64,000 nucleotides of DNA, from the NCBI GenBank assembly GCA_903847205.1, contig CAINDA010000045.1:124001-188000 (forward strand), written 5' to 3'. The position numbers and the translations under genes are program-made. The notes below the pieces were generated by a model. The model saw only the letters and a program-made list of their open reading frames with translations, did not search any database and was not told the DNA's origin. Source of the DNA: an uncultured Bacteroidota bacterium. GTDB lineage: Bacteria; Bacteroidota; Bacteroidia; 2-12-FULL-35-15. Shown here piece after piece: positions 8,858 through 59,100 of the stretch. Numbering within the stretch: the stretch's first letter is position 1; every line of letters starts with the position of its first letter.

Positions 8858-8969
8858 GTGTTTGAGTGTTCAAGTGTTTGGGCGTTTTAGTGTTTGAGTA
8901 TTCAAGTGCTTTTACAGCTTCCATTCTAATTAACATAAACACCAAAATACTCGAACATTTAAACACTAT
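8858..8969. repeat. Inverted octamer array between SUI1 gene and bshA
   Basis: Seven contiguous octamers of the form GTGTTTGA, GTGTTCAA, GTGTTTGG occupy 8858-8913, starting two bases after the SUI1-gene stop codon. After a 24-bp spacer the complementary form (AACACCAA, AATACTCG, AACATTTA, AACACTAT) occupies 8938-8969 and includes the stop codon of bshA. The two arms are inverted and can pair, so the element could end transcription from both sides. No T-run is present. Confidence 0.8.
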
Positions 8970-10108
8970 TTGAATACCGTATTTTTCTCTAAAACTTCTG
9001 CATACAATTTTTCATACATCGGCAGTATTTTAGAAATATCAAATTTCTCTGCCTGGGCATACGCATTTGCTTTGAATTGATTTAATGTATCATCATTTTG
9101 CAGAATATGTATTGCATTTTTGGCCATACCCTCTATATCTCCCACATTACTCATGTAGCCAGAAAAACCGTTTACATTTACTTCAGGCAGTCCGCCTGAA
9201 TTAGTTGAAATTACGGGCACTTTGCTTGCCATTGCTTCTAGTGCAGCCAAACCGAAACTTTCAGTTTCAGAAGGGAGTAAAAATAAATCTGCAATTGCTA
9301 ATATGGGTTCGGGGTTCACAATTTTTCCTAAAGATTTAATATCGCTGCAGGTATCCAATTCCCTGCAAAGCTTTTCTATATTGCCTCTTTCGGGGCCGTC
9401 GCCGATTAAAATTAATTTCGAGGGGATTACTTTTTTTACTTTATCAAACACCCGCAGCACATCTTCTACACGTTTTACTTTTCTGAAATTAGAAACATGT
9501 ATCAGCAGGCGCTCGCCATTGGGTGCATACATTTTTTTCTTGCAGGTTGTGCTTTCAAACTTATAGTCATCGAGGCGTATAAAGTTGGGAATCACTTTAA
9601 CTTCTTTCCGAACGTTTGGAAAGTTTTTGTATGTATCCTCTTTCAAACTTTCTGAAACAGCTGTTACTGCATCGCTCTGATTTATTGCAAAAGTAATTAC
9701 AGGTTCAAACGAAGGGTCTTTGCCAACCAGGGTAATATCTGTACCATGAAGTGTAGTAATAAAAGGGATATTGATTCCCTGCGATGCAAGTATCTGCTTA
9801 GCCATGTAGGCCGCAGAGGCATGAGGAATAGCATAATGAACATGAAGCAGATCCAGCTTTTCATATTTCACTACATCTACAAGCTTACTTGCTAATACCA
9901 GCTCATAAGGAGGATACTCGAATAATGGATAATCCGAAACTGAAACTTCATGATAAAATATATTTCCAGATAAAAAATCCAACCGCACAGGCGGACTGTA
10001 AGATATAAAATGCACTTCATGACCTTTTTCGGCAAGCGCCTGCCCAAGCTCTGTTGCGACTACGCCGCTTCCGCCGAATGTGGGATAACAAACTATTCCT
10101 ATTTTCAT
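8966..10108 (-). CDS. bshA: N-acetyl-alpha-D-glucosaminyl L-malate synthase BshA
   Basis: 380 residues, the usual BshA length. The N-terminus M-K-I-G-I-V-C-Y-P-T-F-G-G-S-G-V-V-A-T-E-L-G is characteristic of BshA. It continues with H-V-H-Y-A-I-P-H-A and, in the C-terminal GT-B half, L-L-P-S-E-T-E-S-F-G-L-A-A-L-E-A-M-A. The enzyme joins UDP-GlcNAc and L-malate, the first step of bacillithiol synthesis in the cytoplasm. BshB and BshC are not in this window. The stop codon is part of an octamer repeat, and a second long array sits just upstream of the start codon. Confidence 0.95.
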   Translation of the reverse strand: MKIGIVCYPTFGGSGVVATELGQALAEKGHEVHFISYSPPVRLDFLSGNIFYHEVSVSDYPLFEYPPYELVLASKLVDVVKYEKLDLLHVHYAIPHASAAYMAKQILASQGINIPFITTLHGTDITLVGKDPSFEPVITFAINQSDAVTAVSESLKEDTYKNFPNVRKEVKVIPNFIRLDDYKFESTTCKKKMYAPNGERLLIHVSNFRKVKRVEDVLRVFDKVKKVIPSKLILIGDGPERGNIEKLCRELDTCSDIKSLGKIVNPEPILAIADLFLLPSETESFGLAALEAMASKVPVISTNSGGLPEVNVNGFSGYMSNVGDIEGMAKNAIHILQNDDTLNQFKANAYAQAEKFDISKILPMYEKLYAEVLEKNTVFK

Positions 10109-10112
10109 TGTT

Positions 10113-10289
10113 CTTCGAGTGTTTTAGTGTTTGGGTGTTTTGGTGTTTTGGTGTTTTGGTGCTTTAGTGTTTGGGTGTTTGGATGTTTTAGCGTTTCTAT
10201 TTGATTGGAAACACAAATACTCAAACACAAGAACACTATTTATTGCCTAAAACACTTGAACACTAAAACACTCGAACACCTTGAAACTA
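10113..10289. repeat. Large inverted octamer array between bshA and the four-helix-bundle gene
   Basis: About ten octamers of the form GTGTTTTR/GTGTTTGG run on the plus strand from about 10118 to 10197. The complementary form (AACACTAA, AACACTCG, AACACAAG) runs from about 10210 to 10289, reaching the stop codon of the minus-strand gene. The halves can pair into one long imperfect hairpin. Period eight is clear by eye over most of both halves. Confidence 0.8.
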
Positions 10290-10715: not shown

Positions 10716-10771
10716 TAGTACTAAAACACTAAAACACTAAAACACTAAAACACAGGAACACCTAAACACTA
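10716..10771 (-). repeat. Octamer array at the stop codon of the GH3/serine-hydrolase gene
   Basis: Four consecutive copies of ACTAAAAC and further variants run from about 10717 to the stop codon at 10769-10771. On the minus strand the gene ends TAG followed directly by TGTTTAGG and GTGTTTTA-type units. Only one arm is present, unlike the inverted arrays at 8858 and 10113. Confidence 0.8.
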
Positions 10772-13696
10772 CTTCACAGCATCATAAATAATTTCCTGAA
10801 TTTTATTGCGGATGCCTGATTTCGAAAGTTTGTTTTCATCAGCATTCGGATTAACCCTGTTGGATAAAAAGATATAAACTAACTGATTAGAAGGATCGGC
10901 CCACGCTAAAGTGCCTGTAAAACCTGAGTGTCCGAAGCTTAAATAAGAAACGCAGCTGCATACCGGGCTGTCTTTATCAGGATTGGTTTCCGGTTTATCG
11001 AAACCGACAGCCCTTCTGTTTTCTTTGCAGTACTGGCATCTTGTACATTCATTCAGTGTTGCCGAATCAAGATAACGCCTTCCGCCGTACTCGCCTTTAT
11101 TCATGTACATCTGCATCATTACAGCTAAATCATTTGCATCGGAAAATAAACCGGCATGTCCTCCCACGCCTCCAAGCATTGCTGCGCCCTGATCGTGTAC
11201 ATCGCCGTGAATAAGCTGTTTGCGGAATTTTTTATCCATTTCAGTGGGGATAATTCTATTCAAATCAAATCTGTCACGCGGTTTATAACCCATTGTTGGC
11301 AGGCCGAGCGGCGCATAAAAATATTTTATTACATAGCGTTCTTCGGGAACAAAAGTGAGCTTTTCAATAATTTTTTTCAGAAAATAATATCCAAGATCGC
11401 TGTACACATATTTTCCGCTTTCCTTTACAGGAGATGCAATGATCTGCTTGTATATAGAATCTTCATAATTTTTATTGATAAATAAATTTTCTGCAACGCG
11501 CTTAGGAAAATCATCGCTTCTTACTTTGCTATAAATTCCTGGCTTATATTCGCCTTTCTCCATTGTTTTTATCCAAAATGGAATCCAGTCTCTCAGACCC
11601 GCCTGATGAGTGAGCATTTCACGCAGTATAATATTCTGCTTGTTGCTTCCTGCCAGCTGTGGCAGATAATAAGAAAGATGCTCGTTCAGATTTATTTTTT
11701 TTTCATCCATCAATTTCATAAGCGAAGGTGTTGTAGCTGCAATTTTAGTGATGGAAGCCAAATCATATAAATCATCATTCTTTACTTTTGTTTTTTTCTC
11801 GTATGTATGATATCCGAATGATTTCTGATAAATCACTTTTCCGTTTTTCGCCACTAAAATCTGGCATCCCGGATAAATTTTTTCCCGGATTCCTTTCAAC
11901 GCAATACTATCGATTCTTGATAATTCTTTTGAGTCGGCGCCAATCTCCTCTGGGATGGTATATTTAAAGCGGATAGCTTTTGTGTTGATTCCCGTACCTG
12001 CTTTAAAATATGGACTTGGCGTAATAGGCAGTTTTCCGGAAGCAGTTATGCCGCCGAAGATTAACTGTGCTGCGTAACTTTCGCTGTAATCATTATCTTC
12101 ATAACTCATAATCACAGCGTCTGCAAATTGCAGACTGTCCATCTTTGCGAGGATGTAAGGATTCGCAGCAACATTCACAATTACTTTCGACTGCTTCATC
12201 AGCGCCTTTAACATCCAAATTACTTTTTGGTTTAGTCCAAAATCTTTATCAGGTTTATTATTTGTGTTATTGATCTGAACTATCACCAGGTTATATTTTT
12301 TAAGGGCATTTAAAACAGTGTCGAATATTGCATTCTTCGCATCTTTATCAATCCCGTAATGCTTCATTGGCGCATAATTGGCGAGCGTATGTTGAAATAA
12401 ATTCAAGTCGTCATCTCCAAGTGACAACGATGCAATGCGTAATGAATCCAGGTTCTGCAGCGGTATAATATTATTCTTATTCTTCAATAATGTTAAAGAT
12501 GCTTCAGTAAGCCTGCGGTTGATCAACTCCGCAGCAGTTGGATTCAAATCACTATAAAGGTTTTTCAACTTGATTGGTTTGTAATGATTTAATCCTGCCC
12601 ATTGTTTCGCGCGCAGAATTTTTATACAGCGCTTATCAATTTCTTCCTGCGTGATATCACCTGCAGCAACTGCTTCTTTAATTTTATTGATGGCGGTCGG
12701 GACATCTTCCGGGAAAAGAAGCACATCATTTCCGGCTATCAATGCTTTCACATCAGCTTCACCCGGTTTGTAAAATTTGCTGACGCCTCTCATATTCAAA
12801 GCATCAGTAAATACAAGCCCTTTAAAGCCGAGGGTGTCTTTCAATAAACCTGTTACTATTTTTTTAGAAAGTGTAGATGCCTGATTGGGCGTGGTATCTA
12901 AAGCAGGTACAAATAAATGGGCAACCATCATACTTCCAAGCCCCTGTGCAATCAATTGTTTGAAAGGGTATAACTCCAATGTGTCAAGACGGTCACGCGA
13001 CGATTTTACGGTGGGCAGTGTTTTATGAGAATCGCTGTCGGTATCTCCGTGTCCGGGAAAATGTTTTGCGTTAGCAAGAACGCCGTTATCCTGCATTCCT
13101 TTCATGTACATTGCTGCTTTACGCGTAACATTAAATTTGTTTTCACCGAAGGAACGGTTGCTGATAACGGGGTTCAGAGGGTTGTTGTTTATATCCACTA
13201 CTGGTGCAAAATTTATCTGCATGCCTATACGTTTACACTGGCGGGCTATTTCGGCTCCCATAGTATAAATCAGCGTGTCATTTTGAATTGCACCGAGCGT
13301 CATTTGACGGGGAAATTTTGTTGTGCTGTCCAAGCGCATAGCGAGTCCCCATTCCGCATCAATAGCAATAAACAAAGGGACTTTGGATAATGATTGATAA
13401 GTATTTGTCAGCTTTGCCTGCCGTAAAGGCCCTCCCTGAAAGAATATCAAACCGCCGATTTTATATTTTTCAACTAGTTTTTTTATTTCTTTTACATGTG
13501 TAATATCCTTGTTGGAATATGCCGCAACCATAAAGAGCTGTGCAATGCGCTCTTCGGAGGTTAATGTTTTAAAAACCGAATCGGCCCAGTGCGTATCTGA
13601 TGCGTAAAATGGCGGGGATTGTTTTGTAAACGGAGGAATAAAACTTATGAAAATGCCTGCAAAAACAAATAGTACAGCTAAAATTATTTTCTTCAT
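10769..13696 (-). CDS. GH3 beta-N-acetylhexosaminidase fused to a class C beta-lactamase-fold serine hydrolase
   Basis: 975 residues. An N-terminal hydrophobic segment (1-21) acts as signal or anchor. A GH3 (NagZ-like) domain covers about 40-370, with K-H-F-P-G-H-G-D-T-D-S-D-S-H at 211-224 (general acid/base His) and F-T-D-A-L-N-M-R-G with Asp298 as the likely nucleophile. A GH3 C-terminal-type domain covers about 395-565. The last domain (about 590-975) is a serine hydrolase with S-I-T-K at 648-651, Y-S-D at about 765 and H-S-G at 923. A cysteine group (884, 887, 890, 913, 915) sits just before H-S-G. This fusion is known in Bacteroidota, and a role in peptidoglycan sugar and peptide turnover outside the cytoplasm is inferred. 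Confidence 0.9.
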   Translation of the reverse strand: MKKIILAVLFVFAGIFISFIPPFTKQSPPFYASDTHWADSVFKTLTSEERIAQLFMVAAYSNKDITHVKEIKKLVEKYKIGGLIFFQGGPLRQAKLTNTYQSLSKVPLFIAIDAEWGLAMRLDSTTKFPRQMTLGAIQNDTLIYTMGAEIARQCKRIGMQINFAPVVDINNNPLNPVISNRSFGENKFNVTRKAAMYMKGMQDNGVLANAKHFPGHGDTDSDSHKTLPTVKSSRDRLDTLELYPFKQLIAQGLGSMMVAHLFVPALDTTPNQASTLSKKIVTGLLKDTLGFKGLVFTDALNMRGVSKFYKPGEADVKALIAGNDVLLFPEDVPTAINKIKEAVAAGDITQEEIDKRCIKILRAKQWAGLNHYKPIKLKNLYSDLNPTAAELINRRLTEASLTLLKNKNNIIPLQNLDSLRIASLSLGDDDLNLFQHTLANYAPMKHYGIDKDAKNAIFDTVLNALKKYNLVIVQINNTNNKPDKDFGLNQKVIWMLKALMKQSKVIVNVAANPYILAKMDSLQFADAVIMSYEDNDYSESYAAQLIFGGITASGKLPITPSPYFKAGTGINTKAIRFKYTIPEEIGADSKELSRIDSIALKGIREKIYPGCQILVAKNGKVIYQKSFGYHTYEKKTKVKNDDLYDLASITKIAATTPSLMKLMDEKKINLNEHLSYYLPQLAGSNKQNIILREMLTHQAGLRDWIPFWIKTMEKGEYKPGIYSKVRSDDFPKRVAENLFINKNYEDSIYKQIIASPVKESGKYVYSDLGYYFLKKIIEKLTFVPEERYVIKYFYAPLGLPTMGYKPRDRFDLNRIIPTEMDKKFRKQLIHGDVHDQGAAMLGGVGGHAGLFSDANDLAVMMQMYMNKGEYGGRRYLDSATLNECTRCQYCKENRRAVGFDKPETNPDKDSPVCSCVSYLSFGHSGFTGTLAWADPSNQLVYIFLSNRVNPNADENKLSKSGIRNKIQEIIYDAVK

Positions 13697-31639: not shown

Positions 31640-31759
31640 AAACTGTTGAATTATTAAATTGTTAAACTGTTGAATTGTTTTATTGCTGATTGCATATTAT
31701 CTATTGCCCATTGCCCATTGCCCATTGTCCATTGCCCATTGCCCATTGCCTATTATTTA
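31640..31759 (-). repeat. Mixed octamer and heptamer array after the stop of the 139-residue gene
   Basis: On the minus strand the TAA stop at 31757-31759 is followed within a few bases by about seven heptamers of the GGCAATG type (31700-31750). These grade into an octamer series of AACAATTY/AACAGTTT type (31640-31690). Two different periods lie side by side in one spacer. Confidence 0.75.
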
Positions 31760-38573: not shown

Positions 38574-38613
38574 CAGCCTCTGATGAATCAATAATCTAAT
38601 AAACTTATTACAT

Positions 38614-38645
38614 AGCCCCTTTGCAATCTTGCAAAGGGGCTTTGT
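38614..38645 (+). terminator. Hairpin terminator after the PaaE-like gene
   Basis: A 13-bp perfect stem, AGCCCCTTTGCAA (38614-38626) with TTGCAAAGGGGCT (38629-38641), then TTGT. The right arm resembles the second and third heptamers of the 21-bp array at 48.7 kb. Confidence 0.8.
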
Positions 38646-38662
38646 ATATTTATAAAGCGGCT

Positions 38663-38729
38663 GTGTAAGGCTGCAAATCAGACATGCAAGATTGCGAGGG
38701 CTGTGTAAGTGTGGAAAAGGGCTGTGACT
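38663..38729 (+). repeat. Three diverged copies of the 21-bp array unit
   Basis: Heptamers read GTGTAAG, GCTGCAA, ATCAGAC; then ATGCAAG, ATTGCGA, GGGCT; then GTGTAAG, TGTGGAA, AAGGGCT and the start of a fourth. Order, spacing and the ATGTAAG / TTGCA / AGGGCT themes match the array at 48746-49172. It lies between convergent genes. Confidence 0.65.
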
Positions 38730-46433: not shown

Positions 46434-48572
46434 TTAAGACTTCAATTTTTTTTGATAAAACAATTTCAAAACTGCCGGGAATAAAATAAAATCGCTGATC
46501 CAGGCCAAAATAATTGTTGCAGTAGTGAGCATTCCGAATTCTACAATAGTTACCATATTACTGAACAGCAGTACTGCAAAACCAATTGAAAACATTATGG
46601 ATGTGGCAGTACAAGGGAAAATAATTTTTCTGACAGAATCTGCAAATGTTATATTTATTAACTGGTTTTCATCTTGCAGCACTTGCAGATGCTTCTTGTA
46701 ATTCCAAATAATATGCAGGGCATCATCAGTGATCATCCCAATCGCAATAGAGGAAATAATAGATGTGCCTACATCAAAAGGAATATCGAATACCTTCATC
46801 AGAACTGCAACACCGCATAGCGGGAATACAGTTATCAATAATGTAATGAGTCCTAATTTAAGATCTCTTACAAGCAGCGTCATAACAATAAGTATTAAAA
46901 TCACGGCTATTACTAATCCATGCAGCATGCCTTCTACTATTGTATCCATCTCCTCAAGGTAAACCGGCAGAAAACCTGCAGGATTTATTTCTAAACTGCT
47001 CCCCAAAAGCGCCTTGTCAAGCTTATCCTGAATAGTTTGAAGCATCAGTTCCATCTGTTTCACAGAGCCTGATGGTATGTTAATAACCATGCGTGAATGG
47101 CGCTTATCTTTTGTTAAAAAATTGTCCGCTAACTGCTGCGCGAGCGCTGAATCACTTATTGCAACTGTATAGATGAGCGGGCGCCATGAATCATATCCAA
47201 CAATACTTTTAACAAATGGGAGAGCCGCAGCCTGTTTTTTTGCTTCTGAAACTATTTTAAAATCCTCATTACTTAAAGGCTGCTTGTCTTTTTTTGTTAC
47301 CAGAAAATCTATAACATTAGCAGGTCCGTTGTGTTGTTCAATATATTCAACGGTGCGCCTTACTTCGTTATCCGGTTTCATAAAATTAACCATATTGGTA
47401 TCCGTTTTTATTTTCGGAAAAACTACAGCGGCAACGGCAATTACCGCTAAAATAAATAGTAATGCAGCAAAGGAAAATGAAATGGATATTTTTTTATAAT
47501 ACTTGTCCAAAATGCTGCTGAGACCGCCTCCTTGAATCACCAATTCATTTATATCAATCAGCCGCACCGCCAGCGGAACGCCCGCTAATAGCATGGTAAG
47601 CAGGCCGGCAATTATACCCAGAGAAGTGAGTATGCCGAATTGTGCAATCATAGTAATATTGCTTGCTGCAAGCGACCCGAAACCAATTATAGTTGCTATT
47701 GCAGAAGTGATTATAGGCGGGATTTTTTTTGAAAGATATGCTTCAATATCTATGGTTTGTTTTGTAATAATGTGAATAGCAAAGGAAGAAAAATTAATAA
47801 TAAAAAGTAAGGGAACCGTCATTGTAATCATATTGAATGGAATATTGAGCCAGCCGAATAATGAAACTGCAGGGATAAGAGCGGCTAAAACCAGAGCGAG
47901 GCAGATCAACAGATATTTAATTTTACGAACCTGCCAGGCTAATAAGATAAAAACTAAGACAAAACAGATGATAAAAAGTTTTGAAGAATCTTTTGAACTC
48001 AAATTATTTATTTCATTAAATACAATGCTTTGTCCGCTTAAATGAACTTTTACAGCGGGTGGAACAACTGCTTTTAAAATAGTATTCAGCGAATCAATTA
48101 ATAATGGGCGTATTGTTATTATGTCTTTATTCAAACGGACTTTCAGAAAAAGCATTTCACCTAAAGTATCGTTAGAAGCAAAATAGAGCTTTTCCATTTT
48201 TTTAGAATAGCTCTTACCCATTATACTGCTGACCTTTGAAATACTTGAGCGTGACAGAATTGTTGAAAAACCGTAGATAGATGAACCTGCTTTGTCACTG
48301 ATGCTCTCTAATGTATTCAGCCGGTATTGCTGGGTGCTCGTATCAGGAAAAGTGAGATACAGCAGCATTAATTCATCGCTGCCAAAATCTTTAAGGAATT
48401 GATTTCTCGCAAGCAGCTGTTTCGAATTTTTAGGAAGCCATCCTTCGCCGTTTGGGTCTTGATGAATATTAAATATAGGATAGCTGCAGGCTAAAATTAA
48501 TGAAGTGATTAGTATTAATAAAAGAGGTTTTGAAGAGGCGTATTGGATATACTGGCCATATTTTTTTAACAT
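46434..48572 (-). CDS. RND-superfamily (MMPL/SSD) exporter
   Basis: 712 residues from the ATG at 48572. A longer in-frame start would be a TTG sitting on the presumed -7 box, so it is rejected. Twelve membrane helices in two halves: each half has a periplasmic loop of about 170-200 residues and a sterol-sensing-type block of five to six helices (I-T-S-A-I-A-T-I-I-G-F-G-S-L-A, S-S-I-A-I-G-M-I-T-D-D-A-L-H). The single-chain, 700-residue size fits MMPL/hopanoid or lipid transporters rather than tripartite drug pumps. Cargo unknown, possibly a lipid. No adaptor or outer-membrane channel is adjacent. Confidence 0.88.
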   Translation of the reverse strand: MLKKYGQYIQYASSKPLLLILITSLILACSYPIFNIHQDPNGEGWLPKNSKQLLARNQFLKDFGSDELMLLYLTFPDTSTQQYRLNTLESISDKAGSSIYGFSTILSRSSISKVSSIMGKSYSKKMEKLYFASNDTLGEMLFLKVRLNKDIITIRPLLIDSLNTILKAVVPPAVKVHLSGQSIVFNEINNLSSKDSSKLFIICFVLVFILLAWQVRKIKYLLICLALVLAALIPAVSLFGWLNIPFNMITMTVPLLFIINFSSFAIHIITKQTIDIEAYLSKKIPPIITSAIATIIGFGSLAASNITMIAQFGILTSLGIIAGLLTMLLAGVPLAVRLIDINELVIQGGGLSSILDKYYKKISISFSFAALLFILAVIAVAAVVFPKIKTDTNMVNFMKPDNEVRRTVEYIEQHNGPANVIDFLVTKKDKQPLSNEDFKIVSEAKKQAAALPFVKSIVGYDSWRPLIYTVAISDSALAQQLADNFLTKDKRHSRMVINIPSGSVKQMELMLQTIQDKLDKALLGSSLEINPAGFLPVYLEEMDTIVEGMLHGLVIAVILILIVMTLLVRDLKLGLITLLITVFPLCGVAVLMKVFDIPFDVGTSIISSIAIGMITDDALHIIWNYKKHLQVLQDENQLINITFADSVRKIIFPCTATSIMFSIGFAVLLFSNMVTIVEFGMLTTATIILAWISDFILFPAVLKLFYQKKLKS

Positions 48573-48631: not shown

Positions 48632-48709
48632 ATCAAATATGTTTTTGAATAGGGTTTATACTTAGGGGACTTCGCATTGAGCTTAATGGGATATTTTCAT
48701 AGAGGCGCA

Positions 48710-49222
48710 AGGCTGGGCATGGGCTGTGCAAATTGCACAAGGTTCATGTAAGTTTGCACTAGGGGTCTGAAAGTTTGCACAAGGGGCATGTAAGTTTGCA
48801 TGAGGGGCATGTAAGTTTGCACGAGGGTCATGTAAGTTTGCACAAGGGGCATGTAAGTTTGCACAGCGGGCATGTAAGTTTGCATGGGAGTCATGTAAGT
48901 TTGCACAGGGGCTATGTAAGTTTGCACAGGAGTCATGTAAGTTTGCACAAGAGCCATGTAAGTTTGCACAAGGGGCATGTAAGTTTACACAAGGGCTATG
49001 TAAGTTTGCACAAGAGCGATGTAAGTTTGCACAAGGGGCATGTAAGTTTGCACAGCGGGCATGTAAGTTTGCACAAGAGCCATGTAAGTTTGCATGAGGG
49101 GCATGTAAGTTTGCACAGGGGCTGTGTAAGTTTGCACAAGGGGCATGTAAGTTTGCACGAGGGTCATGTAAGATGAATCCAAGAGGAGAGATTACACAGG
49201 GAGTATGTAAGGTTGAAAGCTA
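48710..49222 (+). repeat. Tandem array of 20 units of 21 bp, each three heptamers
   Basis: Full units run from 48746 to 49165, with 18 of exactly 21 bp in register from 48788. The unit is ATGTAAG, then TTTGCAC, then AAGGGGC; the first two heptamers are nearly invariant and the third varies (GAGGGTC, AGCGGGC, AAGAGCC, AGGGGCT). Degenerate units extend to about 48710 and 49222. Since 21 is a multiple of 3, long frames stay open on both strands (heptapeptides GHVSLHK or LVQTYMP), but they lack an ATG start outside the repeat and one is broken by a C-to-T change. There are no spacers, so it is not CRISPR. Non-coding array between divergent genes. Confidence 0.95.
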
Positions 49223-49403: not shown

Positions 49404-50039
49404 ATGACAACACTTGAACTAATAAAACAAACAGGAGCTGGAGTTGCTTTTGAAAATGAAATTATTGCGAATAAAAACAATCAGGACATTTCTATACCTA
49501 ATGGATTAGCTGAAGACTTTATACTAAGGGTGAAATCAGATTTATTTGAGTTTAATACATTAGAACAATTCGACTATACCCACTGCAATTTATTCAATAG
49601 AGCATTTATATACGTGTATGGCAAAGGCGCTGAGGCTGCCTTTTTTTCTAAACTTGGAAATTCAATTTTAAAAATAAATTATGAATTTGATAAATTAATG
49701 AAAGGCATCTGCGGAGAGAAACTACCAGATCATATACTCTTATGCTTAAACAAAAAATCAAGTGCAATGATTGATATGTATGTCAAAATGTTTCAACTTA
49801 CAAGAGGATCGCAAGAAAAAATGATTTCAGAAAACATAACTTTTCAGGATTGTATTTCTACAATCCTAAGTGCCGCTTTTTTTTACGGATTTGAAGTTTG
49901 TTTAACATGCGAATTTATAGAAAAAGATAAATTAACTAAATACCCGGAAGAATCAGATGTGCCTTACAATTATAATACCTATGACCAAAAATACAAGATT
50001 GATGACTATAATTTTAAAAATTTCAAATCGGAAATTTAG
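49404..50039 (+). CDS. Hypothetical protein in accessory island
   Basis: 211 residues, no signal peptide or membrane helix, A+T-rich codons. Acidic and aromatic; the middle (F-N-R-A-F-I-Y-V-Y-G-K-G-A-E-A-A-F-F-S-K-L) looks helical and the C-terminal 30 residues are Tyr/Asn/Asp-rich. I do not recognise a family. First gene after the 21-bp array, about 180 bp downstream; a short inverted repeat and the word TAACGTTAGGC follow it. Confidence 0.6.
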   Translation: MTTLELIKQTGAGVAFENEIIANKNNQDISIPNGLAEDFILRVKSDLFEFNTLEQFDYTHCNLFNRAFIYVYGKGAEAAFFSKLGNSILKINYEFDKLMKGICGEKLPDHILLCLNKKSSAMIDMYVKMFQLTRGSQEKMISENITFQDCISTILSAAFFYGFEVCLTCEFIEKDKLTKYPEESDVPYNYNTYDQKYKIDDYNFKNFKSEI

Positions 50040-50131
50040 GATTAGTATTAACTGAATTGAGTGCTAAATTCTACCTGTTTAACGTTAGGCATGTGCAAAG
50101 CTTTATTAATTGCATTTGAACAAATATATAG

Positions 50132-50965
50132 ATGAACGAAAATGTAAAAAATATACTTTCAGAAATTGAGAAGTATTTAAGCGCAAATCCAAACATAAGA
50201 TTTTCACAGGCGTTATTTAATTTGGGAATTAACGAATTTGCAGATAAAATTAATCCAAATGAAAAGGAAAACTTACTACGAGATATTTATAATGATGCTG
50301 ATAATGACATTTATCAGAAGTTAATAAATAAAAACATAAAACTAAACCAGAATGAAAAAGTTGAGATGTTTGATAGTGCGTTTATAATGCAATTAAGAAT
50401 GAATGCAGGCGATTTAGTATTTTCTAAAAACTTAAAACTAAATTCAGTATTATCAAAAAGACAAACATTTTACAACAACAACTTTAAATACACAGCAAAA
50501 AAAATTGAACAACTAATACAGCTCAATTCTATTTTTAAAGAAAAGGAAAAGGCCGTTTATCAATCCTGCAAAAGTATTGAGAACAATATATTAGCAAATA
50601 ATAAAAAATCAAAAAGTCCTTATACCGATTATGAAATTAATATTGAGCTTGCTTTTTATTCTGATAAAATTCAAAATAAATATAGAAAATATGAACTAGA
50701 CTACATATATAAAGACAGATTCATACTTATTTTCAGAAAAGAAGAAAACAAAAGCATTGACGAACCCGATAACAATTGGATTCACTTTATTACACCAGAA
50801 GAATATATTAATCCCACAATAAATTTGCTTAATTCTAAAATAAATCTCTGTCGAACTTTTTTCTGTCTATTGGAATATAGTTACCTTTCGCTCGAAGATA
50901 TTTTACTTATTGATAATATTTGGTGGGATGTGAATGTGAGCAATCAATTTAATAGTAAATTATAG
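50132..50965 (+). CDS. Hypothetical protein upstream of PD-(D/E)XK nuclease
   Basis: 277 residues, no membrane segment. The first 65 residues (L-S-A-N-P-N-I-R-F-S-Q-A-L-F-N-L-G-I-N-E-F) resemble a small helical motif seen in various bacterial hypothetical proteins (N-x-R-F-x-Q-x-L-x-N-L-G). The remainder is Lys/Asn/Tyr-rich and ends with an acidic, aromatic segment (L-I-D-N-I-W-W-D-V-N). Only 21 bp separate it from the nuclease gene, so the two are co-transcribed and may work together. Function unknown. Confidence 0.6.
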   Translation: MNENVKNILSEIEKYLSANPNIRFSQALFNLGINEFADKINPNEKENLLRDIYNDADNDIYQKLINKNIKLNQNEKVEMFDSAFIMQLRMNAGDLVFSKNLKLNSVLSKRQTFYNNNFKYTAKKIEQLIQLNSIFKEKEKAVYQSCKSIENNILANNKKSKSPYTDYEINIELAFYSDKIQNKYRKYELDYIYKDRFILIFRKEENKSIDEPDNNWIHFITPEEYINPTINLLNSKINLCRTFFCLLEYSYLSLEDILLIDNIWWDVNVSNQFNSKL

Positions 50966-50986
50966 TACGGAAATATTTATAAATTT

Positions 50987-52213
50987 ATGGAAACAAATAC
51001 AATAACAATTAAAAATCTACTTTCTCATGTAAGCATCATAAACAAGAAGTATGAGGATATTTCAAAAATTACAGGTGAAAATTTTAATATTTTTCAAATC
51101 TTACGTGTTGAAACAGATGAGGTTCGTTTACACTCCCGCTTTATTGCTGAATTGCTTAAACCATATGGAATACACGACCAAGGTATCCTATTTCTTAAAC
51201 TCTTTGTCCAAAAATTAGGTTTAAATGAATATACAGATGAGCAATTAAAAAACACTCGAATTGAGATTGAAGAATCAATCGGTGACTTAGGAAGAATTGA
51301 TATTGTAGTTAAACCAAATAAAGGAAAGGGAATTGTAATAGAAAATAAAATTAATGCGATTGATCAAGATGAACAACTCATTCGCTATAAAAAAATGTAC
51401 AAAGATGCTCATCTGTTTTATTTAACAAAAGATGGAAAAATGCCAGATAAGTTAAGTATTACTGACAAAGTAACGAAAAAAGAACTCGAAGTTGATAAGG
51501 ATTATTTTTGTATTTCTTACAACACACAAATTCTCGATTGGCTTACAAACTGTCACTTACAATCCTTTAATCATCCTTTAATAAGGGAAACTATCTCACA
51601 ATACATAACAGTTATCAGGAAATTAACTAATCAATCATTAAGCAAAAACATGAGCAACGACATTAAAGATATTATCAAAAAAGATTCAGAAAATTTCATT
51701 GCAGCGGCAATTATTTCTACAGAAATGAATCTTTTACTTGCAAATCTAAATGAAGATTTGTTAAAGAGAATTAAAATTAAAATTGAGAATAAGTATAATG
51801 TTAAAGAAAAGTCACCCTTTTTGAATCACAAGGGGTACTTCTTTTATTTTTTTAAGTATGATGAGTTTAAGTTTTATATTCGTGTTGGTCTTGAGTATGG
51901 CATGTCAATTTGGCTTGTTCCAGCCAAAGGAGAAGGAAGTCTGTTTACTGTTGCTGATGACAATAAAATAAAAGACTTTAAAAATGTATTGAAGAATTTT
52001 CCAGGATACAATGTCGAAAACAATCCAAATTATACTGGATGGGTAATAAGTAAGAACAATTTTGTCAATTGTCCTAATTCTGATAAATACAAATTTGTAA
52101 ATGAAATTAGTTCGGATAAAATTTTAGACGATATTGTTTCTGAAGTTGGTGATTTTGTGACATATTTTAAAAACAATGTTAGCAAATCACTAGAAATGGA
52201 GTTTAGTTTTTAA
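50987..52213 (+). CDS. PD-(D/E)XK-superfamily nuclease
   Basis: 408 residues. N-terminal domain of the PDDEXK_4 type: E-T-D-E-V-R-L-H-S-R-F-I-A-E-L-L (Glu45), I-G-D-L-G-R-I-D-I-V-V (Asp105), I-V-I-E-N-K-I (Glu119, Lys121), then D-Q-D-E-Q-L-I-R-Y (Gln130). All catalytic residues of a metal-dependent endonuclease are present. The C-terminal half (about 220-408) is an unassigned domain with W-L-V-P-A-K-G-E-G and W-V-I-S-K-N-N-F. Cytoplasmic. Such nucleases occur in restriction and anti-phage systems but also alone. Pair with the 277-residue gene upstream. Confidence 0.8.
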   Translation: METNTITIKNLLSHVSIINKKYEDISKITGENFNIFQILRVETDEVRLHSRFIAELLKPYGIHDQGILFLKLFVQKLGLNEYTDEQLKNTRIEIEESIGDLGRIDIVVKPNKGKGIVIENKINAIDQDEQLIRYKKMYKDAHLFYLTKDGKMPDKLSITDKVTKKELEVDKDYFCISYNTQILDWLTNCHLQSFNHPLIRETISQYITVIRKLTNQSLSKNMSNDIKDIIKKDSENFIAAAIISTEMNLLLANLNEDLLKRIKIKIENKYNVKEKSPFLNHKGYFFYFFKYDEFKFYIRVGLEYGMSIWLVPAKGEGSLFTVADDNKIKDFKNVLKNFPGYNVENNPNYTGWVISKNNFVNCPNSDKYKFVNEISSDKILDDIVSEVGDFVTYFKNNVSKSLEMEFSF

Positions 52214-52630
52214 ATTCATATAATTCTAACGTCCTCATTAGTTGCAAACTTGCCTTACTTTTACATAATAAAACAACTAAATAAAAATAACCTACCGAAT
52301 TATGATTATAAATTTTGCGGATTACGCAACATTTTAAAGTAATAGTTACGTATTGCAAATCTTTCATTATAAGCCCCATATCGAAAAAAACTTCGATCTC
52401 TTTTGACAGTATCTCCCTCTTTGCCTGCTTTTAAATATTTAGAGTTTATAATAGAACCAAATATTCTGCACTCCTGTCAAAGTATGACGTTATAATATTT
52501 TTTATTGCTCCATGTTTTTTAGATCATAATCCGGTAGTGAAGCAAAATAATTTGCACAACGACATAGCTTGTCGTTTTTTGTAATTTAATTTGTAGAAAC
52601 ATTTACAATACCAACTTAATACTCAGAACT
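52214..52630. other. 417-bp gene-free spacer inside the island
   Basis: A+T-rich. Contains TAACGT followed by a TGCAAA word (52227-52250), a short hairpin TGCG-GATTA-CGCA near 52310, and AACGACA/TGTCGTT (52558-52576) followed by five T, a weak terminator-like stem 55 bp ahead of the next gene. No open frame I would call a gene. TTGCAAACTTGCC resembles the complement of the 21-bp unit only loosely. Confidence 0.45.
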
Positions 52631-53317
52631 ATGAACAACATTGATGAACGTTTTGAAAAAATGCAAGAGAGTTTTAACAATCTTCAAAATCAATTTTTAA
52701 TGTTAAGGAACATTGAAACTCCAACTGAAAACGAAGGCATTTATAAAATATCCTCAGTTTCTGAAATTTATCACCAAACAAACTCAGAAAAAAAATTCAT
52801 CAATATTCTTTCGCTCCAATTTCCAGTATATAAATTTTTTATTGAAGAAATTGAAGAGAGGTCACACAAACTCAATACCCAATTAAACAAAAAATTAGAA
52901 AATTGTATTTTGAATTCAATTGAAACTACATATAAAAGCGAAGATTATGTTGTTGTAATTACTGGTAATAGCTTTCATCATTTTACCTCCATGACAAAAC
53001 TGATATATGATAAAATAAATAAAAACAAGGCTGGTAAAATTTCAATTACAAATAATGAGAAAGAGTTAGTTCACAAATATGAGTTTGGGAAATTAAATAG
53101 TGTTGGAGAAAACAAAATAATGGCTTCTTTTAAGCATAGTTATTTAAATGCGCTGACTTATAATGGACATTTATTAGAAAATCAAAATATTATACTGCTA
53201 AATGATGAGTTTGGCTTTGACGACCCGCTTACAAATGCGATAATAGAACTAAAACCTAAAAGCATCCTTAATCTTTTATTCGCAAGACGGAACTATTGGA
53301 TAGAGAGCATTCATTAA
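52631..53317 (+). CDS. Hypothetical protein with N-terminal coiled coil
   Basis: 228 residues. The first 28 residues (F-E-K-M-Q-E-S-F-N-N-L-Q-N-Q-F-L-M-L) look like a short coiled coil. A mixed alpha/beta part follows, with Y-V-V-V-I-T-G-N-S-F-H-H-F and N-I-I-L-L-N-D-E-F-G-F-D-D-P as beta-strand-plus-loop pieces. No family recognised, no signal or membrane helix. It lies 82 bp upstream of a 67-residue coiled-coil gene and then a WYL regulator, all on the plus strand; the three may be one unit. Confidence 0.6.
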   Translation: MNNIDERFEKMQESFNNLQNQFLMLRNIETPTENEGIYKISSVSEIYHQTNSEKKFINILSLQFPVYKFFIEEIEERSHKLNTQLNKKLENCILNSIETTYKSEDYVVVITGNSFHHFTSMTKLIYDKINKNKAGKISITNNEKELVHKYEFGKLNSVGENKIMASFKHSYLNALTYNGHLLENQNIILLNDEFGFDDPLTNAIIELKPKSILNLLFARRNYWIESIH

Positions 53318-53399
53318 TTAGTAAGATAAAGGGTAGAAACATATTATGTGAAACAAAGTTTATTGAAACTATAATTTTTAATTTAAAATAACAACGACT

Positions 53400-53603
53400 A
53401 TGAATAATCAAATAAAACAGCAATTAATCGAATTACACACAGTTTTGGATAAGGAATTTAAACAATTATCCAGCCTTAGAAATGAACTTTTTAAACTTCA
53501 AAAATTCGATAGTGCTGATAATATTTATGATTTTGAAAGAAACATACAAAGCCTAATGCAATGTATTTGCACTCACCTAAATAATTTAAACAATGAAATG
53601 TGA
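53400..53603 (+). CDS. Small coiled-coil protein
   Basis: 67 residues, almost entirely amphipathic helix (I-K-Q-Q-L-I-E-L-H-T-V-L-D-K-E-F-K-Q-L-S) with a Cys-x-Cys near the end. No family recognised. Coding support comes from its clean start and from lying in line between the 228-residue gene and the WYL regulator gene. It could be a partner or antitoxin-like subunit, but nothing in the sequence shows this. Confidence 0.5.
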   Translation: MNNQIKQQLIELHTVLDKEFKQLSSLRNELFKLQKFDSADNIYDFERNIQSLMQCICTHLNNLNNEM

Positions 53604-53722
53604 CATAACATTTTGTTAAAGTTTGGAATATCAATAATTCCTAAAAAATATTGGAGCTGTGAAGTTTCAGTTTTTAAGATAATTAATTATATAACTTCAT
53701 ACCAATTAAAAAAATAGTATTT

Positions 53723-54628
53723 ATGTCGAAACTAGAATTTTTACAACGCTATAATTTAATAGTAAATTACTTGAGAAGAGGGAAAGCATCTTTTAACGAT
53801 ATTAGTAATTACCTCGATAGAGAATCAGAAATTCATGATTATAATTTTTCTGTATCTCAACGGACATTTCAGCGCGACATAAAAGAAATATTATCCATTT
53901 ATAGTATTGAAATCAAATGCAATAAATCGAGTGGATTGTATGAAATAGCAGAGGATATAGAAGATTTCAGCAATAAATCTAATCGACAGCTTTTAGAGGC
54001 AGTTGATCTATTCAGTGCACTAAACTTAACCAGCAACTTCAATCAGTTAATTCAATTTAGCACTCGAATAGTAAAAGGGACAGAACATATTTTAGGATTA
54101 TTGCATGCAATCAAAAACAGGCAATATGTGACCTTTACGTATAAAAAATTTTATTCAGACATTTCACAAAACAGAACAGTAGAATCTCTTCTCATTAAAG
54201 AATTTAAGGGCAGGTATTATTTAATAGGATTTGACATAGAACGTAATGCAATAAGAACATTTGGACTTGAAAGAATAACGGAGCTTTCAATAGACAAAAG
54301 AAAGTTTAAAGCCAGAACGGATTTTAATGCACAAAATATTTTTAAAAATGCTTATGGTATAATTGCTCCACCTGATGCGAAAGTTGAAAATATAATACTG
54401 AAATTTAATAGAAACCAAGGGGAATATATAAAATCTTACCCGTTTCATAATTCACAACGAATAATTAGAGAGGGAAAGAATTCAATAACATTTGAGCTTA
54501 GCATATATATTACAGAGGATTTTGTTTTTGAACTTATGAGTCATACCGGACATTTCTCTATTACTCAACCTGCAAGTCTAAAAAATTATTTTAAAAAGGT
54601 TTATAAAGAATCAATTACAAACATTTGA
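53723..54628 (+). CDS. WYL-domain transcriptional regulator
   Basis: 301 residues. N-terminal helix-turn-helix (about 1-80: R-Y-N-L-I-V-N-Y-L-R-R-G-K-A-S-F-N-D-I, then V-S-Q-R-T-F-Q-R-D-I-K-E). A WYL domain (about 130-205) has Y-V-T-F-T-Y-K-K-F, G-R-Y-Y-L-I-G-F-D and I-R-T-F-G-L-E-R-I; Tyr replaces the first Trp of the W-Y-L triad. A WCX-type C-terminal domain (215-300) follows. WYL proteins bind nucleic-acid or nucleotide ligands and often control anti-phage operons (for example BrxR, CapW). It probably regulates the genes just upstream. Confidence 0.85.
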   Translation: MSKLEFLQRYNLIVNYLRRGKASFNDISNYLDRESEIHDYNFSVSQRTFQRDIKEILSIYSIEIKCNKSSGLYEIAEDIEDFSNKSNRQLLEAVDLFSALNLTSNFNQLIQFSTRIVKGTEHILGLLHAIKNRQYVTFTYKKFYSDISQNRTVESLLIKEFKGRYYLIGFDIERNAIRTFGLERITELSIDKRKFKARTDFNAQNIFKNAYGIIAPPDAKVENIILKFNRNQGEYIKSYPFHNSQRIIREGKNSITFELSIYITEDFVFELMSHTGHFSITQPASLKNYFKKVYKESITNI

Positions 54629-55811: not shown

Positions 55812-56030
55812 TCAATAAGCCCTCTCCTTTTTTCAAGGTGAGGGTTGGGTGAGGTTCAAACAAACCTGTTTTATATTTTCAAATTATATCAATAAGCCCT
55901 CTCCTTTTTTCAAGGTGAGGATTGGGTGAGGTTCAAACAGGTCTGTTTTATATTTTCAATTTATATCAATAAGCCCTCTCCTTTTTGCAAGGAGAGGGTT
56001 GGGGTGAGGTTCCAGCAAACTTGTTTTAAT
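55812..56030. repeat. Three tandem copies of a 76-77-bp hairpin-forming repeat
   Basis: Copies begin TCAATAAGCC at 55812, 55889 and 55965. Each holds CCCTCTCCTTTTT then CAAGGTGAGGG or CAAGGAGAGGG, an inverted pair able to form a hairpin, then TTGGGTGAGGTTC. Copy-to-copy identity is very high over the first 45 bp. The third copy is the most divergent, with a better hairpin. Non-coding. Confidence 0.9.
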
Positions 56031-56076
56031 TGCAGATTTATATACCGATGCAAATAATTTTTGCAGTTTCATTCCG

Positions 56077-56126: not shown

Positions 56127-59100
56127 GTGAGTACTCTCTTTTCTCTTCCGTTTAAAAAAACGGCTGCATCATTTCTTATTTTAATATCCTTGTTTGGCAT
56201 CAGTACTATTGCCAATGCTCAGTTTTATACCGGCTCCCAGATGGATTTTGGTAAAAACCGCGTGCAGTACGAAAAATTCTTCTGGACCTATTACACCTAC
56301 GACCGCTACGACGTTTATTTTTATGAAGAAGGAAAAGAACTTGCCAACTACGTTTCTAAATCAGCAAAAAAACAAATTACCGATATAGAAAAGCTGTTTG
56401 ATTATACCGTAGATGAACGTTTTCAGTTTATCATTTATAATAAACAGTCCGATTACAAAACAAGCAACTTAGGTCTTTCTACGGATGATCAATACAATAC
56501 TGGCGGTGTTACGCACATTGTTGGCTCAAAAATTATTTTGTATTACGAGGGAGATCATGCCAAGCTGGATGCTCAGATCCGCGCCGGTGTTGCCGAGATA
56601 CTTATTGACCAGATGATGTACGGCGGAAGTGTCCGCGAAATGGTTAAAAATAATACACTCCTGAATTTACCCGATTGGTACCTGAAAGGATTGATTTCTT
56701 ATGTAGCCCACGGCTGGAATTCAGATATTGATAACCGTGTAAAAGACGGTATCCTTTCCGGAAAGTACAGCAATATAAACCGTTTGGAAGGTAATGATGC
56801 TGTTTATGCCGGCCATGCATTATGGAAGCACATTGCCGATAACTACGGCGAAGCTGTTATTTCAAATATTTTATACATGACCAAAGTGAGCCGTAATATT
56901 GATAATTCGGCATTATTTGTTTTGGGAATATCAATAAAGAATTTGTCGGATGAGTGTTTTGATTCCTTCACTAACAAATACAACGAAAAAGACGGCACAA
57001 AATCGCTGCCCGCTCAGCAGCCGATACTTCTTAAGCCCAAAGCAGCAAGGGTTTACGGCCAGTTAAAGATAAGTCCGGATGGCAGTCATGTTTTATACAC
57101 CACCAATGAAATGGGACAGAATAAAATCTGGCTGTATGATGTTGAGACTAAAAAAACAAAACGTATTTACAAAGCAGGGCAGAAGATAGACAGAGTAAAT
57201 GATTACTCATACCCGATATTAGCCTGGCATCCGAGCGGAAAGCTTTTTTCTTTTATCATTGAACGTAAAAGTTACCTGGTGATGAAAACGTTTGAGCTGG
57301 AAACTGAAGAGACCACAGAGCGCAATATTACCGGATTTGAGAAGGTATTGGACTATTCATATAATGATGATGGAAAGAAATTTGTAATGTCGGCAGTGCA
57401 GAAAGGGCAGACTGATATTTATGTGTTTACAGCAGCATCAAACGGTTATGAGCAGATTACAAAAGATATTTATGATGATTTAACACCGCGTTTTGTGCAT
57501 GGTTCAAAAGAAATTGTATTTGCATCTGACCGCCCTGTGGATACATTGTTTTTTGACCCGAAACGTAAATATGCCGACCCTCAGCCTCATAAAGATTTGT
57601 TTGTGTTCAACAACGTAACCAAATCTCATTATTTAAAACGGGTAACCAATACGCCCACAATTGACGAAATGTATCCTGCTGATTACGATGATACACACAT
57701 TTCATATCTAAGCGATATGAATGGTATCAGAAACAGATATGTTGCAAAATTCGACAGCGTTTTGGCCTATATCGATACCGTATCGCATTATCGCACCGTA
57801 GTTACTTCATTTCCGATAACTAACTATTCACGCAGTATTTTAGAGCAGGATGTAAACGTAAAGGCGCATCAATTCAGCGAAATAATTTTTGAGCACGGAA
57901 AATATAAAATGTTTACTGCTCCTTTAGTAAGCTCTTCTAATCTGGTTCCGATTGAATTAAAGAATACTTCCTATCGTGATTATAAAAATATACTGGAGAA
58001 AAAAGAACAGGCTGACGAGGACAAAAAGAATAAAATTGCTAATGAAACGCCTAAGGTTGAAAATGTAAAAACAATTGTAAATACAGCAGCTCCTGTAAAA
58101 AAGGATACGAATGAAATAGACATTAACAACTACACATTTGAAAACGAGCTAAAAAAACCTGAAAAAAAGGAGCAGGCTAAACTGCCTGTTAACAGTAAGG
58201 ATGCTGGAGCATCGTTATTAAAAAAAGATGCCGAATTTCAGCTTGGAAAACAAAAGAATTATTATACCAATTATTCAGTTGATTATGTAGTAACTCAATT
58301 AGATAATTCATTTTTAAATGGATCGTATCAAAAATTTTCCGGCGGAGGGAGTCCTATTTATTTGAATCCAGGTCTTAATGCATTTTTTAAAGTCAGTGTC
58401 AGCGATTTGTTTGAAGATTACCGTATTTCAGGCGGCATGCGCTTTTCATTCGATTTGAATAACAACGAATATTTTTTAAGTTATGAAAACAGGCTGAAAA
58501 ATATTGATAAGCAGATTATACTTCATCGTGAGTCACTGCTCACTACCGGTGATTTTGGTTCACTGGTTAAAATTTTTACGCACGATGTAAAATATGTTTT
58601 AAAATATCCTTTTAACGAAGTTGCAAGTCTGAGGGGAGCCGTCAGCTACCGTAACGACCGTACTGTTACTCTCTCAACCAATGACATTACGCTTACACAG
58701 CCTAATACACAGGAAAACTGGGGCTTCGTTAAAACAGAGTATGTATTTGACAACACTGTAAAAAAAGGCTTGAATCTTTACAACGGAACAAGGGCTAAAG
58801 TGTTTGGCGAATATTACCGTCAGATTGATAAGCCTAAAACCGATTTTTTTGTTCTTGGATTTGATGCACGTCATTACCAAAAAATTCACCGTGATTTAAT
58901 ATGGGCAAGCCGTATTGCAGGCAGTTCGTCTTTCGGCAGCGAAAAATTAATTTATTACATGGGAGGCGTTGATAACTGGTTTGGTGCGAAATTTAACAAC
59001 ACTACAAACATAGCAACCGATCAAAATTATGCCTACCAGACATTAGCAACAAATATGCGCGGATTTTTCCAAAATATCCGTAACGGAAATAGTTTTGTGG

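Follow-up and report, generated by a model that had tools for sequence, protein, structure and literature searches.

Tandem repeats of bacteria were reportedly the subject of an earlier broad survey by Subirana and Messeguer. Plasmid iterons, protein-bound direct repeats of 17–22 bp that are spaced by two helical turns, offer a working analogy for the array described here, although no replication initiator was found among its neighbouring genes and the arrays of its genome are many, of differing sequence and located on chromosomal contigs. Bacterial tandem repeats of constant size and variable sequence, with units of 20–21 or 52 nt, were described by Subirana and Messeguer, and the same paper gives a repeat size of 20–23 nt in many bacterial groups (PMC8161180). 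Such satellites occur as several families per genome, are species-specific and non-coding, and their function is unknown; their repeat length equals two helical turns, and either a polymerising DNA-binding protein, which would need a constant repeat size, or small RNAs have been proposed to account for it (PMC8161180). In the Bacillus sets a short word is common to most arrays of a species (PMC8161180). Within the Bacteroidota, BrickBuilt of Porphyromonas gingivalis is an intergenic minisatellite with 23-nt repeats that lies within a MITE (PMC4596501), and heptanucleotide direct repeats of the TAACTGA type are intergenic and also occur in some Bacteroidetes (PMC4679880).

We analysed a stretch of 64,000 nucleotides from an uncultured Bacteroidota bacterium, here called the window, in which the initial annotation had marked a 21-bp tandem array. 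T9SS sorting domains in its proteins suggest a member of the Bacteroidota. The array is real: in-register alignment shows 20 indel-free units of exactly 21 bp at 48746–49165, and Tandem Repeats Finder reports 48733–49172 (period 21, copies 21.0, score 589). Including the decayed edges it extends over 48704–49222, the decay spanning about 40–60 bp per side while the middle is homogeneous. The array is situated in a divergent gap, with the following features:

46434–48572, minus strand: MMPL/HAE3-like RND exporter, left flank, transcription away from the array
48704–48745, plus strand: left edge of the array, decayed, two degenerate units (in-register alignment)
48725–48739, no strand assigned: perfect 15-bp palindrome TGTGCAAATTGCACA, leftmost recognisable unit (direct reading of the sequence)
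48746–49165, plus strand: regular array, 20 x 21 bp, consensus ATGTAAGTTTGCAC + AAGGGGC
49166–49222, plus strand: right edge of the array, decayed (in-register alignment)
49404–50039, plus strand: 211-aa protein without known domain, right flank, transcription away from the array

Substitutions are spread unevenly within the unit: only four fall in columns 1–13 (ATGTAAGTTTGCA) and 37 of the 41 in columns 14–21 (binomial p 5e-12), therefore the unit is divided into a conserved core of 13–14 bp (ATGTAAGTTTGCAC) and a variable spacer of 7–8 bp. This bears out the annotated near-invariance of ATGTAAG and TTTGCAC next to a variable last part. The proposed build from three heptamers did not hold, self-similarity of the window array at lags 7 and 14 being at background (0.24 and 0.23), and the same absence of a 7-bp substructure was observed across 16 arrays. 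TAACTGA-type repeats, likewise intergenic direct repeats, differ in this respect by their 7-bp units (PMC4679880). The order of unit types, thought to be non-random with a recurring four-type series, was indistinguishable from shuffled unit order (P = 0.52 for the best lag), and a segmental duplication of four-unit series thus found no support in the shuffling. A CRISPR array was rejected as well: the unit measures 21 bp with a variable part of 7–8 bp, whereas a CRISPR array has repeats of about 24–40 bp that are separated by unique spacers of comparable size and lie next to cas genes. Among the neighbours searched, genes for a cas nuclease or for adaptation were not detected, one WYL regulator model being the only hit.

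Short-period arrays occur elsewhere in the window. A true heptamer array is located at 31703–31754 (7.4 copies of ATTGCCC), and two arrays with a period of 8 bp at 10118–10196 and 10720–10771 (GTGTTTTG; ACTAAAAC) flank the gap between the genes 8966–10108 and 10769–13696. In addition, a 77-bp tandem repeat with three copies (55812–56043) is found directly upstream of a 1108-aa gene at 56127.

The number 21 is divisible by three and two open frames (133 and 93 aa) are present, so that each unit might be taken to encode seven amino acids (GHVSLHK or LVQTYMP). We give this reading almost no credence: the substitutions form one block (columns 14–21) without a codon-third pattern, a credible start or domain is absent, many sister arrays are interrupted by stops in every frame or nearly so, and periods of 41 and 62 bp, both present in this genome, are not divisible by three. 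The window array looks non-coding, as the initial annotation had held when it saw no credible gene.

The core ATGTAAGTTTGCAC is a worn palindrome of GTGCAA-NN-TTGCAC: compared to the perfect dyad two bases differ, both in the left arm. The perfect 15-bp palindrome at the left edge is presumably the ancestral form of the core. A sister array on contig C14 carries the dyad GTGCAANNTTGCAC, matching the palindrome at 48725–48739, in repeated copies, and also contains GTGCAAGGTTGCAC repeatedly. When other copies were sought genome-wide, the same family was recovered at three further sites, one of them within the window, which brings it to four places in total:

C14, 9042–9549: family member, about 24 units
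C67, 102138–102201: family member, 3 units
window, 38610–38727, plus strand: degenerate family member between convergent genes (sequence comparison)

This degenerate member is composed of a 28-bp perfect palindrome AGCCCCTTTGCAATCTTGCAAAGGGGCT (38614–38641) and about three worn units (38660–38727); with convergent genes on either side, the palindrome could act as a terminator. Taken alone, the window array does not reach significance for symmetry (p 0.13 for local dyads, p 0.39 for the whole unit), which counts against reading it as a row of protein sites, and the C14 sister array is significantly symmetric in the same two tests (p 0.023 and 0.0095).

Nearly every unit also has TAAGTTTG, which fits the Bacteroidota -7 promoter consensus TAnnTTTG, on the plus strand and facing the downstream gene. 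Nevertheless an array of promoter -7 boxes is most improbable: the preceding TTTG is situated 13 bases upstream, too short compared to the usual distance of 17–23 bases, the sister array has GCAAGGTTG and hence lacks the motif, and other arrays do not have it in common.

No match to the window family was found among 58 other genomes, 35 of them congeners, and in this respect the family is species-specific like the constant-size satellites. Its occurrence at four places recalls BrickBuilt, which belongs to the same phylum and likewise has intergenic direct repeats close to two helical turns in length, without spacers, at many loci and with conserved and variable positions inside the repeat (PMC4596501). 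A MITE-type mobile minisatellite akin to BrickBuilt is still very unlikely here, since the flanks of the four members are dissimilar and neither a leader or tail of this type nor terminal inverted repeats were found around the array. BrickBuilt is moreover a single sequence family with leader, tail and terminal repeats (PMC4596501), whereas the arrays of this genome differ in sequence.

We determined how common such arrays are in about 1.29 Mb, corresponding to 23% of the genome; the contigs C14 and C67 were included for carrying members of the window family, and a 288-kb sample was made up of contig starts picked without regard to arrays. On six contigs (1.0 Mb) we detected 32 repeat clusters of at least 80 bp whose period is close to 21 bp or a multiple thereof, and the unselected sample yielded 9 further clusters at the same density; a few of the 32 and 9 clusters are coding. 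Altogether some 35 arrays have a period of 21 bp or a multiple of it (41, 42, 62 or 63 bp). They are mostly intergenic and unrelated in sequence, and the whole genome probably contains more than 100 of them by extrapolation. After dropping repeats within long open frames and requiring at least four copies, 18 arrays fall at exactly 21 bp, compared to zero or one at each of the periods 17–20 and 22–24. The same analysis in five congeners (1.01 Mb) returned zero arrays at 21 bp. Repeat peaks at 7 and 8 bp are present in the own genome and the congeners alike, and intergenic arrays of these periods are common in both, unlike the 21-bp arrays. Comparison by BLASTN mostly revealed no similarity between arrays, with four families comprising at least two loci, and no 4–6-mer was common to all arrays above column-permuted controls.

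The window array therefore fits as an intergenic satellite of the class with constant repeat size and variable sequence. Its genome shares with the described cases the preferred length, the lack of mutual similarity among most arrays, the confinement to one genome as seen against the congeners, and the non-coding nature indicated by stops, intergenic position and the substitution block. It differs from them in its host phylum, the Bacteroidota, in the multiples of 41, 42, 62 and 63 bp and in measurable reverse-complement symmetry, in the core and spacer contrast of several arrays and a preference for divergent gaps, and in the missing common word, which is typical for Bacillus, not defining for the class. 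At one locus (L017 3380–4115, G000:C44:10380–11115) two different arrays adjoin in one divergent gap, a 21-bp array with possible KETIE-type heptad coding and a 42-bp palindromic array. Expansion of two gene types was rejected as array source: REP/Y1 transposases number 2 copies only, below several congeners, and the 4 reverse transcriptases in the genome are not exceptional.

The units of the arrays tend to be symmetric. Consensus units compared with their own reverse complement show excess similarity over column-permuted units (Fisher p 1.8e-13, 25 arrays), and local dyads are in excess as well (p 5e-9, 20 arrays); kinship among a few of the arrays makes both pooled values somewhat optimistic. 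For four arrays that are coding or uncertain, the symmetry p was 0.08. In 42-bp arrays with differing halves, strong dyad centres are placed exactly 21 bp apart (C34:20605, C44:56740 and L162). A conserved core with a variable spacer of fixed length is present in several arrays, the window array among them. At C44:193730–194150 TTATTAGCTAATC alternates with a nearly free spacer of 7–8 bp and the length of 21 bp is held in 19 units. Clustering of conserved columns is significant overall (p 6e-5); that it reaches significance individually in only about one third of the arrays counts against a general protein-site reading.

We also analysed the location of arrays with respect to genes. Arrays were present in 16 of the 82 divergent gaps compared to 12 of the 283 other gaps (p 3.5e-5), counts of limited precision because the genes are simple ORF calls, and they are typically located 100–400 bp from start codons. 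In co-directional gaps they often start within tens of bases of the stop codon of the upstream gene, and convergent gaps are not enriched. Between co-directional genes, 14 arrays were found in minus-strand and 1 in plus-strand gaps of the contigs as written, an imbalance that is probably due to chance because contig strand is arbitrary.

The exporter to the left of the window array, annotated as core, was not confirmed as such: an MMPL/HAE3-like RND exporter was detected in 2 of 36 same-genus genomes, the own included (E <= 1e-50), and the region upstream of the orthologue in genome G008 carries no array. The accessory island assumed on the right is plausible. There, a low-GC gene group (about 0.25–0.30) at 49404–54628 represents a candidate defence island, in which a PD-(D/E)XK nuclease gene (50987–52213) matches the PADLOC candidate defence family PDC-S26 (E 7e-91), alongside a WYL-domain regulator (53723–54628) and several proteins that have no known domain. 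We see nothing that ties the array in particular to the exporter or the defence genes; being one of many in one size class, it is not special to this junction.

Palindromic units, the frequent start of arrays tens of bases past an upstream stop codon in co-directional gaps, and satellites of B. coagulans reported as transcribed (PMC8161180, PMC8625621) would all suit an array that acts as RNA, whether as hairpins in a transcript, as a small RNA or sponge, or as a series of terminators. We consider such a role unlikely: neither strand folds better than shuffled sequences (z -1.4 and -0.5), compensatory covariation between the arms is not significant (p 0.10 pooled), no Rfam family matched, and arrays are not in excess in convergent gaps, the expected place for terminators.

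Similar arrays were observed in G038, a genome from a different family in the same taxonomic class, where three arrays in 60 kb match the density seen in the genome of the window:

L161, 345–577: palindromic array, 41/42 bp
L162, 3276–3563: palindromic array, 41/42 bp
L163, 14212–14568: palindromic array, 41/42 bp

Their periods are 42, 42 and 41 bp, their dyads include TTCGCACATGTGCGAA and GTTGGGGAAACCCCAAC, and the two arrays tested are both strongly symmetric (p 0.0005 each). Because these 41/42-bp palindromic arrays occur in another family, the phenomenon seems to be recurrent in the Bacteroidota, perhaps independently. When public contigs, genomic and viral, were scanned for two cores in succession, only isolated places with one match came up, mostly two- or three-copy repeats; the scan also retrieved a 21-bp array from L071, an uncultured Bacteroidetes MAG, and this array is not significantly symmetric.

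The suggestion of a protein-binding or structural element made by the initial annotation is still the best reading, backed by the constant 21-bp period, the core and spacer design, the symmetry and the divergent gaps, with the binding itself as the inferred part. A recombination hotspot, which the initial annotation also put forward, is conceivable. Our tentative explanation, held at somewhat below even confidence, is satellite turnover combined with selection for palindromic protein sites two helical turns apart. Arrays may grow and homogenise via slippage or unequal recombination, and selection may at least partly retain a palindromic site every 21 bp. A putative dimeric DNA-binding or nucleoid-associated protein could then occupy adjacent sites along the same helical face and would organise or insulate the DNA upstream of promoters; in the window array the putative site would be the core. 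The pattern hints at landing strips for proteins. As no word is common to the arrays, no single sequence-specific protein can read all of them.

A strong rival, possible though we lean to it less, is neutral slippage: palindromic seeds would trigger slippage or looping by about two turns at a time, and a neutral or selfish minisatellite would expand and homogenise without function, its presence doing no harm in the large gaps that precede promoters. This agrees with the mutually unrelated sequences, with decayed edges around a homogeneous middle, with the array-free G008 orthologue and with the absence of arrays from congeners, because of which they are to be seen as recent and lineage-specific. 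A slight excess at 21 bp is apparent even among own-genome arrays below four copies (6, compared to 1 at 20 and 2 at 22 bp). The strongest counterpoint is the concentration of substitutions in the spacer at constant 21 bp, which duplication of whole units does not explain, and the excess of arrays in divergent gaps over other gaps also speaks against the neutral reading.

Constant-size bacterial satellites have been catalogued already. In the genome studied here the arrays exhibit an internal design, consisting of palindromic symmetry, fixed spacing and a preference for divergent gaps, and this visible design makes it testable whether a protein reads helical phasing; the similar 41/42-bp arrays in a second Bacteroidota family allow a comparison. 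As a bolder and rather doubtful extension, Bacteroidota might repeatedly evolve genome-wide sets of palindromic arrays that are helix-phased, lie upstream of promoters and differ in sequence from one another, because a chromatin-like protein responds to spacing and symmetry more than to sequence. If true, bacteria would thereby have a counterpart to chromatin organisation based on satellites.
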